From the NCBI GenBank assembly GCA_002687745.1, contig NZBE01000004.1, positions 1 through 51,496 on the forward strand: a stretch of 51,496 nucleotides of DNA. The letters are read 5' to 3'. Positions 35,936 to 40,982 of this stretch are shown piece after piece (position 1 is the stretch's first letter; each line of letters begins with the position of its first letter). Made by a program: the position numbers and the translations under genes. The notes beneath the pieces are model-generated. The model did not search any database and was not told where the DNA came from. It saw only the letters and a list, made by a program, of their open reading frames with translations. The stretch is from Acidimicrobiaceae bacterium (GTDB lineage: Bacteria; Actinomycetota; Acidimicrobiia; Acidimicrobiales; MedAcidi-G1).

Positions 35936-37257
35936 CGGTCCGTGCCTTCTGGAACGCCCGAGGTGGCCAGTACCGGGCCCAACATGGCACTCAGCTTGAC
36001 CTCGGTCTCAAGCAGCTCGCGCTCGGGGTCGGAGCCGGCGACCACTCCGGCGCCTGCGAACAGGGTGGTTCCCAGGTCGTCGATCAGGGCCGAGCGCAGT
36101 GCCACCCGGAACTCGCCGTTGCCGTCCGCGTCGAGCCAGCCGACAGGACCGGCGAACCAGCCCCTGTCCAGGTTCTCGTGGAGTCCTCTCAACTCGATTG
36201 CCCGACTGATCGGAGCCCCCGAAACCGCCGGTGTGGGGTGGAGTGCACCGACCACGTCGAGGATGCCGACACCGTCCGGCAGCTCACAGCTGATCGGGGT
36301 GTGAAGGTGCTGGATTCCATGGAGGCGCAACAGGACAGGCCCGGCCGGAAGCGACGGTGAGAGGTTGAGGCCGACGAGAGAGTCAGCCACCGCGTCCACC
36401 ACAACGGCATGTTCGTTCCTCTCCTTGGGGCTTGTCATCAGGCCCTGGCCGAGGGCGTTGTCGATGTCGGCGACTGGGTGGCGTGGAGCTGATCCGGCGA
36501 GGGCAGCAGTATCCAGGTGGCCGCTGTGAACGGCGGCAAGCCTCTCGGGGGTGGCTCCGGTGAAGACGGTCCGTCCAGTGTCCACACAGAAGGTGGCACA
36601 GGCTGGGAAGGTCTCCCTGAGGGTGGCCAGCAGACGCGGGAGGTCCGGGCTTCGGTCCACGCGGATGGAGCGACAGGGGACCGCCTTGGTGATCTCACCG
36701 TCGGCAATGGCCTTCAGGGCCGTGGCAACCAGGTGTCGGTACGTCGACCGTTCCTCGCCGGAGGCCCATCTGGAGGCATCGGCCTCCTGTGCATGGTCGA
36801 CAGAGCGGGTCTCCGTGTGGGGAGCGGGAACCGTCTGGTCGCCGATGCTGGTTACCCAGGTCCGGCCATGCTGTCTCAGCACCTGGAGTGCCGGCAGAAC
36901 CAGGCGGCCACCCCCCAACTCCTTCCAGGACGTCTCGCCTCCAGCAGGTTCAAATGCGAAGCCGGCGGCGAGGCGAGGCAGTGGAGCCCCGTCCGGGGCA
37001 TCGATGACGAGCCCGTCCAGGATGTCGGCCGCTACCTCGGCAGCATCGCTGAAGCGGTCGTGTCCAGCGACGGTGGCGGTGGAGACCGAGCCGATACCTG
37101 CCCATGAGGAGTCGTCGTCGGGGATCTCCCAGAACCAGCGTTCGACACCGGCCGGGGAACTGTCCAGCCAGGCCAGGGGGTCGCGGCCCGGTCCGTCGGC
37201 CACCTCGACTGTGGTGGCGACGGCTAGGCCTGCGGCTGTGGGCTCGGTCAGCGCCAT
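35932..37257 (-). CDS. menF: Isochorismate synthase
   Basis: Chorismate-utilising enzyme of 441 residues that makes isochorismate, the entry step to menaquinone. Signature segments of the family: GEITKAVPCRSIRVDR, CATFCVDTGRTVFTGATPERL near residue 245, SPKERNEHAVVVDAV, and the metal/substrate end PTPAVSGAPISRAIELRGLHENLDRGWFAGPVGW. Its ATG lies inside the 3' end of the MerR gene (10-base overlap) without a good ribosome site, implying coupling to the regulator's translation. The chemistry (menaquinone versus siderophore) is set by the menDHC genes that follow. Confidence 0.92.
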   Translation of the reverse strand: MALTEPTAAGLAVATTVEVADGPGRDPLAWLDSSPAGVERWFWEIPDDDSSWAGIGSVSTATVAGHDRFSDAAEVAADILDGLVIDAPDGAPLPRLAAGFAFEPAGGETSWKELGGGRLVLPALQVLRQHGRTWVTSIGDQTVPAPHTETRSVDHAQEADASRWASGEERSTYRHLVATALKAIADGEITKAVPCRSIRVDRSPDLPRLLATLRETFPACATFCVDTGRTVFTGATPERLAAVHSGHLDTAALAGSAPRHPVADIDNALGQGLMTSPKERNEHAVVVDAVADSLVGLNLSPSLPAGPVLLRLHGIQHLHTPISCELPDGVGILDVVGALHPTPAVSGAPISRAIELRGLHENLDRGWFAGPVGWLDADGNGEFRVALRSALIDDLGTTLFAGAGVVAGSDPERELLETEVKLSAMLGPVLATSGVPEGTDR

Positions 37258-38012
37258 TCGCAGGTAACGACCAGGTGTTCGGTGTCGGCAGCGACCAGGG
37301 CGTCGGTGAGGGTTTGCCTCTTGCCGTCGGCCACCCTTTCGAGGGCACGTGAAACGAGAGACCGGTGGAAGTGCTGTGCCACGAGTCGGGTTACGGCTGG
37401 CAGAAGTGCATGGACCACTTCGACGAGGTCGTCATCGCCGGCATCGCCGGCATCGTCGTCATCGTCGTCAACGTGATCTTCAAATAGCGCGACTGCCCTG
37501 CGCACGATCTCGTCGACGTTGCCTGCATGGTCGACCGCAAGGTTGACGAGTTCGTCAAGCGGCACGCCGGCAGCGCTTACCGCAAGGCCGGCTCTGACCA
37601 TGGAGACCGCACCCTGGTCGAAGAGCTGTTCGCCGTCGACGAGGGTTGTCTCGAGAAGGCCGTTGTCGCACAGCAGTGCAACGAGGCCCTCAGGCACCTC
37701 GGCCTGGCCTGCCACCTCGGAGCGCGTCAGGCGGCGTGCCCTGGCAGCTTCGGCTGCAAGGCCACCGAGGTTGTCGGTTCCCTCGGTCGTCTCCGACAGG
37801 CGTCCGATCTGGGCGAGTGTGAATCCGGCGTCGGCGAGGCGTCTGATCTCGGTAAGGCGATTCACGTGGTCGGGCCCGTAGACGGCCCGACGGCCCTGCC
37901 GGTCTGGTGGCTCCAGGAGGCCAAGCCGCTGGTAGTAGCGGATGGTGTCGACGTTCAGGTCGACCTTGGCTGCCACCTGTTCAACCGACAGTTCACGGGT
38001 AGTGGGATCCAT
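37248..38012 (-). CDS. MerR-family regulator heading the men operon
   Basis: Regulator of 254 residues. The N-terminal MerR winged helix (residues 10-80) shows LSVEQVAAKVDLNVDTIRYYQRLGLLEPP and YGPDHVNRLTEIRRLADAGFTLAQIG. The remainder is a long effector region with a very acidic Asp/Gly run (DHVDDDDDDAG) near residue 185. No metal-binding Cys pair is seen. The start is ATG at 38012; there is no ribosome site, but a promoter -10 element ends six bases before it, so the transcript is probably leaderless. It overlaps menF and is divergent from the selenoprotein gene, so it may control both. Confidence 0.85.
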   Translation of the reverse strand: MDPTTRELSVEQVAAKVDLNVDTIRYYQRLGLLEPPDRQGRRAVYGPDHVNRLTEIRRLADAGFTLAQIGRLSETTEGTDNLGGLAAEAARARRLTRSEVAGQAEVPEGLVALLCDNGLLETTLVDGEQLFDQGAVSMVRAGLAVSAAGVPLDELVNLAVDHAGNVDEIVRRAVALFEDHVDDDDDDAGDAGDDDLVEVVHALLPAVTRLVAQHFHRSLVSRALERVADGKRQTLTDALVAADTEHLVVTCEWR

Positions 38013-38119: not shown

Positions 38120-39025
38120 GTGGACCTGAGCGAACCGGTTGACTACATCACGCGTACGATCGAGCAGTACTCGGCCCTCGGCTACGAGCCCTACCAGTGG
38201 GCGCACCGTCCCGACCCACCAGCGTGGCAGCCTCTCGGCCAGCCGCTCTCCGAGTCGACTGTTCTGCTCGTCGGATCCGGTGGCGCATACCGGGAGGGAC
38301 AGGTGGCCTTCCACTGGAAGGACGACACCGGCATCCGCCGTATCCCAACCGACCAGCCGGCCAGTGATGTGAGGGTGACCCACTTCGCCTACGACCTGGA
38401 ACCCGCTCGCAGCGACCCCAACATCGTCTTCCCGGTCGACCGCCTGAACGAGATGGTGGCCGCAGGTGTCATCGGTGGCCTGGCACCGGAGGCACTGGCC
38501 TGCATGGGGGGCATCTACTCGGTCAGGCGTGCCGAAGAGGAACTTGCACCGGCAATCGTCGATGCGGTGCAGCAGATGCCGACCGACATCGACCTGGTGG
38601 TCCTCGTACCCGTTTGACCGGTATGCCACCAGACCGTGGGCCTGGTAGCGAGGGCAATCGAGGCAGCCGGCACGCCGACCGTGTGCCTCACAGCAGCACG
38701 GAGCATCACCGAAGCGGCCAATCCGCCCAGGGCCGCGTTCGTCGACCTGCCGCTCGGCTACACAGTCGGCCGCCCACACGATCCCGGCTTCCAGACCGAC
38801 CTGCTCAACCGGGCCCTGACCGCAGCATGGTCGATCACAGAACCCGGCACCATTGTTGACCTCGGAGTCCGCTGGTCTGACGACCAGTCCTGGAAGGACG
38901 CAGCCACAAGCGGACTCGACAACGGAATCCGCCAGGCCGACGGCGACAGCCGCAGCCCACGCGTCGACGAACCCCAGTACCAGTATGAATCCGACCGTGC
39001 CGCCGCTGATGCAGCTACAGCCTGA
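38120..39025 (+). CDS. Selenoprotein of the GrdB/PrdB reductase family (Sec at TGA 38615)
   Basis: One gene of 301 residues interrupted by an in-frame TGA at 38615-38617 (codon 166). Upstream part: PPAWQPLGQPLSESTVLLVGS, VTHFAYDL, DPNIVFPVDRLNEM and CMGGIYS, all typical of the glycine/betaine/D-proline reductase selenoprotein B family. Across the TGA the frame reads VLVPV-U-PVCHQTVGLVARAIEAAG, which is the family's U-x-x-C redox site; after it come FVDLPLGYTVGRPHDPGFQ and a normal TGA stop at 39023. A stem-loop directly after the TGA fits a bacterial SECIS. It is shorter than GrdB and no other reductase subunit is nearby, so substrate is unknown. GTG start, weak AGAAG upstream. It is 15 bases before the phosphatase gene. 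Confidence 0.92.
38615..38649 (+). promoter_or_regulatory. UGA codon and bacterial SECIS-like stem-loop
   Basis: The Sec codon TGA is at 38615-38617. Seven bases later GCCACCAG (38625-38632) can pair with CTGGTAGC (38642-38649) around the loop ACCGTGGGC: seven pairs with one C-A mismatch. Bacterial SECIS elements lie just 3' of the UGA inside the coding region and present an apical loop with G residues to SelB. Position, stem and G-rich loop all agree. Confidence 0.8.
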
Positions 39026-39040
39026 GACGCCTGACAGCAC

Positions 39041-39583
39041 GTGATCCTCTTCGTCTGCACAGGCAACATCTGCCGGTCGGCAATGGCCGAAGGACTGTTG
39101 GCACACGACCTCTTCCAGGCTGGTTCGGATCTCGTCGTGGCATCGGCAGGCACCCACGCAATGACAGGTGGACCGGCAACCAGCCACTCGGTCGATGTGC
39201 TGGCCGAGCAGGGGATCGACATCTCAGGCCACCGCAGCAGCCTGCTTACCGACTACCTGCTCGCCGAGTCCGACCTGGTCGTGGCGATGACCCGCGTGCA
39301 CGAGTCGAGCGTTGCGGCCCTTGACCAGGACGCCCGGGCACGGACCTTCCTTGCGGGCGAGGTGCCGAGGCTGGGCGGGACAGTTGGCCCACTGCAGCCG
39401 GGCATGGACCTCAGGGAATGGGTGGCGCTCCTCCATGCTGCGCGAGGAGGGCACATGACAGCCGGCCGTACCCCCGACGAGGTGGGTGACCCCTACGGAA
39501 TGGATCGCTCCATCTATGAGGCCCTCCACATTCGCCTCAGCGGAATGAGCTCAGCCATGAGCCGCCTGCTGGCCCCTCGATAG
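39041..39583 (+). CDS. Low-molecular-weight protein tyrosine phosphatase-like
   Basis: Protein of 180 residues. The phosphate loop CTGNICRSAMAE (Cys6, Arg12) is at the N-terminus and the general-acid motif DPYGMD near residue 150. Targets in bacteria include tyrosine kinases, arginine phosphate and, in related proteins, arsenate. A family-typical AGTHAMTGGPATSHSVDVL segment lies between. The insert after residue 100 is longer than in the smallest members. Starts GTG, 15 bases after the selenoprotein stop, so probably cotranscribed with it. No membrane segment. Confidence 0.88.
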   Translation: MILFVCTGNICRSAMAEGLLAHDLFQAGSDLVVASAGTHAMTGGPATSHSVDVLAEQGIDISGHRSSLLTDYLLAESDLVVAMTRVHESSVAALDQDARARTFLAGEVPRLGGTVGPLQPGMDLREWVALLHAARGGHMTAGRTPDEVGDPYGMDRSIYEALHIRLSGMSSAMSRLLAPR

Positions 39584-39641: not shown

Positions 39642-40982
39642 GTGACCCACCGAGTCAGGTTTGCGCCATCTCCAACCGGCTTCCTCCACGTCGGAAGTGC
39701 ACGGACCGCCCTGTTCAACTGGTTGTTCGCCCGCTCGACGGGCGGCACCTACGTTCTGCGGGTCGAGGACACCGACGCCGAACGCAACCGTCCCGAGCTG
39801 ACCGAGAGCCTCCTGGCCGAACTCGAGTGGTTGGGCCTCGACTGGGACGAAGGGCCCCTCTACCAGTCCGAGCGCCGTGATCGCCACCGCGAGGTCGTCG
39901 AAGACCTCCTGGGCAGGGGCCTCGCCTATCTGTGTGATGCCGACAACGCCGAGGTGGAGGGCTCTTCGATAACCGATGGCATGGCCGTGCGGTTCCGGAT
40001 GCCTCCGGGCCGGACCGTGGAGTTTGAGGACATCGTGCGCGGTGGGGTCTCGTTCTCCACCGACGACCTCGAGGACTTCGTCATCTGGCGCTCAAACGGC
40101 TCACCCATGTTCCTGCTTGCCAATGCGGTCGACGACGCCGACATGGGAATCACCCACGCAATCCGGGGCGAGGACCTGCTCTCCGGGGTACCCAAGGTGC
40201 TCCTCATGCTCGACGCCATCGGCGCCCCACACCCGACCTACGCCCACCTTCCCCTCCTGGTCAACGAGCAGCGAAAGAAGCTCTCCAAGCGTCGTGACGA
40301 CGTCTCGATCGCCGACTACCGAGAACGCGGCTACCTGGCCGAGGCAATGGTCAACTATCTGGCGCTCCTCGGATGGGGCCCGCCAGACGACGTCGAGGTA
40401 AGGCCACTGTCGGAGATCGTCGACGTGTTCCGGATCGAGGACGTCAACAAGGCAGCGGCCTTCTTCGACCTCAAGAAGCTCGAGCACATAAACGCCACCT
40501 ACCTGAGGGCGCTGCCAAGGGCCGAGTTCATTGAGCGGGTTGGGCCGTGGATGGGAGAGGCCGCACCATGGCCGACCGAGAGGTTCGACCGGGGAGTGTT
40601 TGAGACCATGGCCGACCTGATCCAGGAGAAGCTGCGGACCTTCAGCGACACCCCCAGGTTCGTGGACTTCCTGTTCCTGGACGACCCTGTCGACGATCCT
40701 GATTCATGGCACAAGGCAATGGTGAAGGGAAAGTTCGCCGCTGAGATCCTCGACGGAACCGCAGCGGCATTCGCCGACTGCACCTGGGATGCCGAGGTGC
40801 TCAAGGACACGGTGATGCACGTCGGCGAGGCCGTCGGCCTCAAGTTGGGCAAGGCCCAGGCGCCTCTGCGGGTGGCCGTTACCGGCCGAACCGTGGGACC
40901 ACCGCTGTTTGAGACCATGGCCGAGTGCATGGATCGGGCCGAGGTGCTGCGCCGGATCGCCCGGGCAAGGGCCCGCCTGTAG
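39642..40982 (+). CDS. gltX: Glutamyl-tRNA synthetase
   Basis: Class I synthetase of 446 residues. The HIGH-type motif is PSPTGFLHVGSARTAL (residues 10-23) and the KMSKS-type motif KKLSKRRDD at about residues 211-219. The anticodon-binding C-terminal domain is helical and complete. Aminoacylates tRNA-Glu; in actinobacteria without GlnRS it also misacylates tRNA-Gln for later amidation by GatCAB. Start GTG at 39642 gives MTHRVRFAPSPTG, the usual beginning. Followed within 65 bases by its own substrate genes tRNA-Gln and tRNA-Glu, an informative arrangement. Confidence 0.96.
   Translation: MTHRVRFAPSPTGFLHVGSARTALFNWLFARSTGGTYVLRVEDTDAERNRPELTESLLAELEWLGLDWDEGPLYQSERRDRHREVVEDLLGRGLAYLCDADNAEVEGSSITDGMAVRFRMPPGRTVEFEDIVRGGVSFSTDDLEDFVIWRSNGSPMFLLANAVDDADMGITHAIRGEDLLSGVPKVLLMLDAIGAPHPTYAHLPLLVNEQRKKLSKRRDDVSIADYRERGYLAEAMVNYLALLGWGPPDDVEVRPLSEIVDVFRIEDVNKAAAFFDLKKLEHINATYLRALPRAEFIERVGPWMGEAAPWPTERFDRGVFETMADLIQEKLRTFSDTPRFVDFLFLDDPVDDPDSWHKAMVKGKFAAEILDGTAAAFADCTWDAEVLKDTVMHVGEAVGLKLGKAQAPLRVAVTGRTVGPPLFETMAECMDRAEVLRRIARARARL

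Follow-up and report, generated by a model that had tools for sequence, protein, structure and literature searches.

Selenoproteins of the PrdB type, recognised by a UxxC motif, are among the commonest marine selenoproteins and were catalogued in 2005 and 2008 (PMC1088965, PMC2398784): the Sargasso Sea yielded 42 of them (PMC1088965) and the GOS survey 235 (PMC2398784). Clostridial PrdB is the 26-kDa selenoprotein subunit of D-proline reductase, and GrdB, GrdF and GrdH are the selenoprotein B of the glycine, sarcosine and betaine reductases. The selenocysteine (Sec) of the UxxC motif is the reactive group in PrdB and GrdB, and for GrdB-like proteins an attack of this residue on a polar bond has been proposed (PMC13188914, PMC10838667).

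The gene described here lies in a stretch of 51,496 nucleotides (the window) from the draft genome of an Acidimicrobiaceae bacterium (1.85 Mb in 38 contigs, 89% complete). Its product is of a kind already known from sea water, with which it shares the UxxC Sec motif, the homology to the PrdB family, a marine origin and a downstream SECIS element. The Sargasso Sea and GOS proteins, labelled "proline reductase PrdB", come from metagenome reads and are likened to ours by their description, whereas the window belongs to the draft genome of a host with Sec machinery and a fixed gene neighbourhood. What is added here is the host genome, a SECIS with comparative support and the lack of a reductase partner in the assembly. 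The protein is homologous to clostridial PrdB over 217 residues and has the Sec in UxxC in common with it, but it is longer at the C-terminus, has no PrdA in its assembly and belongs to a probably aerobic host. With GrdB, GrdF and GrdH the homology is weak and covers the Sec region, and the window's assembly contains neither a GrdE-like nor a GrdA partner.

The reading frame and the selenocysteine codon

The complete gene occupies positions 38120–39025 of the forward strand, with a GTG start, 301 codons and a final TGA stop at 39023–39025. Standard translation (table 11) yields two open reading frames, of 165 residues (38120–38617) and 129 residues (38636–39025). When TGA is read as Sec, the same interval is a single uninterrupted frame, whose sole internal break is the TGA at 38615–38617; the split by gene calling and the continuity through this codon, both pointed out in a preliminary description of the locus, are thus borne out. 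The codon corresponds to residue 166, the first position of a UPVC motif in the context V-P-V-U-P-V-C-H-Q-T (flanks LVPV-U-PVCHQTVGLVARA), and the putative resolving cysteine of UxxC is encoded by the TGC at 38624–38626 on the same strand. By analogy with PrdB and GrdB, UPVC is most likely the redox centre of the protein. Judged from the sequence evidence set out below, the locus almost certainly encodes one Sec-decoded, PrdB-like selenoprotein, a confidence that applies to the decoding and the family and excludes the reaction.

The SECIS element

A stem-loop at 38625–38649 (forward strand), which the preliminary description had called SECIS-like, lies a short distance 3' of the codon. Its core stem of 8 bp pairs 38628–38635 with 38639–38646 around the loop 38636–38638 (GTG) and starts 10 bases 3' of the TGA; two lower G-C pairs (38625/38649 and 38626/38648) extend it, and the pairing can be written as GC.ACCAG.CC-GTG-GG.CUGGU.GC. 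The folding energy of the single sequence was no better than expected from shuffling (three windows, z from -0.9 to +0.5), and an Rfam scan gave no relevant match.

The comparative evidence comes from a gap-free alignment of 42 distinct sequences, in which 94% of the cells of the 8-bp stem are paired. Compensatory changes, on both sides of the stem, occur in 35 cells against 9.0 in shuffles, and the covariation score of 0.380 (0.138 for shuffled alignments) was reached by 0 of 500 shuffles. Sliding the stem by one base reduces pairing to less than 50%, with covariation scores of at most 0.092 in these slid controls. The four codons at +4 to +7 from the TGA (CAC CAG ACC GTG) show a synonymous diversity of 0–0.11, while the conserved codons overall have a mean of 0.52 (permutation p<1e-5), and the fold signal measured against synonymous recoding peaks just 3' of the TGA. 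Because of the covariation and the nearly frozen synonymous sites, the hairpin is regarded on comparative grounds as a genuine SECIS; single-sequence folding is uninformative here.

The stem of the window itself carries one A.C mismatch, in which an A-U pair is broken by a private synonymous codon, GGC at 38639–38641, with the third base C at 38641. The same codon is GGT in the compared orthologues (AGT in two), including the 93%-identical locus L064. This mismatch may slightly weaken the SECIS of the window, or it may be an assembly error.

Conservation of the TGA and alternative readings

The gene or a paralogue was detected in 42 of the 61 related genomes searched, nearly always with one in-frame TGA. 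In a set of 34 non-identical orthologues from independent assemblies, whose protein identity to the window goes down to about 52–55% (Myxococcota locus L065), the Sec column is TGA in every case, and TGC or TGT follows three codons later in all 34. Purifying selection is equal on the two sides of the codon, with a median dN/dS of 0.25 upstream and 0.25 downstream. In distant homologues of the phylum, L068 (VVLVPNCPVCHQTV) and L072 (VLVVPFCPQCHQAD), a Cys occupies the exact Sec column, so the comparison of this column proposed in the preliminary description gives Sec among orthologues and Cys farther away. Among the relatives compared, none has TAA or TAG at the Sec column, and no close relative terminates at the TGA.

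In a draft genome, a lone TGA that differs from a Cys codon by one base could be taken for a nonsense mutation, for a sequencing error in which TGC or TGT was misread, or for the mark of a decaying pseudogene. The recurrence of the TGA in 34 of 34 non-identical orthologues from independent assemblies refutes this explanation, and the purifying selection 3' of the codon, the covariation of the SECIS and the presence of the Sec machinery also argue against it; its probability is practically nil. The table 11 frames would likewise allow two proteins, a 165-residue one that stops at the TGA and another that begins with the GTG at 38636. Between the two, however, the codons for PVCHQT are conserved as protein, the Cys homologues L068 and L072 are single uninterrupted frames, and the TGA position is TAA or TAG in no relative, all of which makes the two-protein arrangement extremely improbable. 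Taken together, the invariant TGA, the selection on both sides and the Cys homologues exclude error, pseudogene and two separate products, in favour of a single selenoprotein.

A reassignment of UGA was also considered and rejected. The codon that ends the gene varies among orthologues (TGA, TAG or TAA) and the internal one is always TGA; the variation at the end implies that TGA still serves as a stop and that there is no genome-wide reassignment.

Two further groups of relatives were observed. PrdB-like proteins of the same phylum (L071 in G173 and L077 in G140) have two in-frame TGAs three codons apart, in the motif A-U-P-I-U-H-Q-S, a putative double-Sec UxxU. Sister genomes contain a second, longer PrdB-like paralogue (e.g., G003:C67:39979-40635 and G006:C4:74918-75604), of 33–37% identity, in a frame of roughly 390–500 residues that also has an in-frame TGA; this paralogue was not found in the 89%-complete assembly of the window's genome (G000).

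The selenocysteine machinery

The existence of selA, selB, selC and selD elsewhere in the genome had been predicted from the gene alone, and all four were found in G000. SelA (396.6 bits) adjoins SelB (272 bits) on contig C20, which also carries the tRNA-Sec with anticodon TCA, and SelD (361 bits) is encoded on contig C5 (L018:1501-2421). Of the two outcomes that the preliminary description had set against its own reading, a genome devoid of Sec machinery and close relatives ending at the TGA, both are excluded. The SelD gene has an in-frame TGA within the active-site motif GAGUGCK, so that SelD is itself a predicted selenoprotein. It adjoins a class V aminotransferase gene, whose product is possibly a cysteine desulfurase.

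Across 396 genomes of the phylum, SelA is present in 71 of the 75 carriers of the PrdB-like family and in 165 of the 321 non-carriers (Fisher p=6e-14). Those carriers that lack SelA, four in all, are metagenome-assembled genomes (MAGs) of 82% completeness or less.

Relationship to PrdB and GrdB

The NCBIfam model of D-proline reductase PrdB, TIGR04483, matches residues 33–249 with E=1.4e-39 and spans the Sec site, but the score of 136 bits does not reach the curated equivalog cut-off of 300. Pfam GRDB (PF07355) just passes its gathering score (26 bits against 22), and TIGR01918 (selenoprotein B) remains below its cut-off (29.7 against 65.45). About 50 C-terminal residues extend beyond the PrdB model and end in a conserved PQYQxxxDRxAA. 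On these profile matches the protein is a PrdB homologue and not demonstrably a strict PrdB or GrdB; the wording "PrdB-like" was chosen because the scores fall below the equivalog cut-offs. The earlier assignment to the GrdB/PrdB family accordingly holds as homology and needs tightening beyond that.

No solved homologue was found: a PDB sequence search gave no significant match, and the AlphaFold model, of fair quality (mean pLDDT 81.7, pTM 0.86), had no significant Foldseek match among PDB structures and viral models. Even the top PDB matches remained weak (E of 0.003 and above).

Reductase partners and the host

The notion of a true D-proline reductase PrdB, or of a glycine-reductase-type GrdB, acting with an unseen PrdA or GrdE partner draws on the strength of the TIGR04483 match, on the Pfam GRDB score above its gathering value and on the incompleteness of the assembly. 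The distribution of the partners is against it. PrdA had no match and no candidates in the 89%-complete G000, with a model whose control consists of sub-cut-off relatives and includes no true PrdA; such sub-cut-off matches occur in 13 of the 396 genomes of the phylum, most of them at about 1.4 kb from GrdB-type genes that match weakly rather than next to strongly matching PrdB-like genes, and they may represent GrdE-like proteins. No GrdE-like gene was found in the G000 assembly, and GrdA is absent from G000 in a search that was positive in G019, G023, G045 and G057. The absence of both reductase systems' partners, noted in the preliminary description, thus holds in the assembly, of which the missing part could still contain a partner gene. 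Considering as well the score, 136 bits where the cut-off is 300, and the oxidase genes described below, we regard a true PrdB or GrdB as very unlikely, and the stand-alone PrdB-like protein is preferred.

The GrdA genes of these relatives, which belong to the same order as the window, carry an in-frame TGA (G019:C24, G023:C45, G045:C77 and G057:C187), and some members of the order may thus possess a system of the glycine-reductase type.

Three COX1-family genes in G000 suggest that the host respires aerobically, in line with the earlier expectation of a probably aerobic host. Among named loci, the nearest come from MAGs of marine origin with the labels Actinomycetota, Acidimicrobiales or Candidatus Microthrix; by this the host probably belongs to the Acidimicrobiia and lives in the sea. 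The product is therefore classed as a stand-alone PrdB-like selenoprotein, and its host as a marine actinobacterium that is probably aerobic.

The genomic neighbourhood

A divergent gene for a MerR-family regulator (37248–38012, reverse strand; PF13411, E=7e-18) precedes the selenoprotein gene in a conserved order, and this gene, with menF/menD upstream, recurs in almost every relative from the same family for which flanking sequence is available. The MerR-family protein is a possible regulator of the selenoprotein gene. On the other side, 15 bp 3' of the selenoprotein gene, lies the gene of a low-molecular-weight phosphatase (LMWPc; 39041–39583, forward strand; PF01451, E=7.8e-26), and the two genes, judged from the gene order in relatives, are probably co-transcribed in the window's genus. 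The next gene downstream is gltX, for glutamate-tRNA ligase (39642–40982, forward strand, from its ORF translation), also in conserved order.

In other genera of the family the phosphatase gene is displaced, and other genes stand between it and the selenoprotein gene (L054:4924-5922, L062:4919-7107 and L060:2314-4788). One of them encodes an alpha/beta hydrolase, an Abhydrolase_3 by Pfam in L054, and in L060 and L062 a CoA-transferase III gene also intervenes. Among the more distant relatives examined there are no shared neighbours. Since the downstream genes vary and distant relatives share none, the neighbourhood was dropped as a guide to function and no partner is proposed.

Proposed role and significance

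The comparative sequence evidence shows that the UGA at 38615 is decoded as Sec, by SelB together with tRNA-Sec(UCA) and under the direction of the SECIS hairpin. In the mechanism that we propose, the protein would most likely work without PrdA, GrdE or GrdA. By analogy with PrdB and GrdB, the selenolate of U166 would attack a small substrate at a polarised bond, or reduce an oxidised or disulfide substrate, and Cys169 would resolve the intermediate by forming a selenenyl-sulfide with U166. A cellular thiol or thioredoxin may then reduce the selenenyl-sulfide and return the enzyme to its starting state. The most likely activity is that of a thiol- or selenol-dependent reductase acting on a small molecule.

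A broader proposal, to which we give slightly less than an even chance, is that selenoproteins of this stand-alone PrdB-like kind form an enzyme class of their own, aerobic selenol reductases without a pyruvoyl subunit, conserved throughout one family of marine Acidimicrobiia and encoded beside a dedicated MerR regulator.

Standard annotation splits the gene in two, and thereby conceals, in the organisms that carry it, a selenoprotein family that ranks among the more abundant in the sea. Because the draft genome combines a full Sec machinery and oxidase genes with no PrdA, GrdE or GrdA, "proline reductase" is probably a misnomer for the stand-alone PrdB-like branch, and the real reaction of this branch becomes a testable question.
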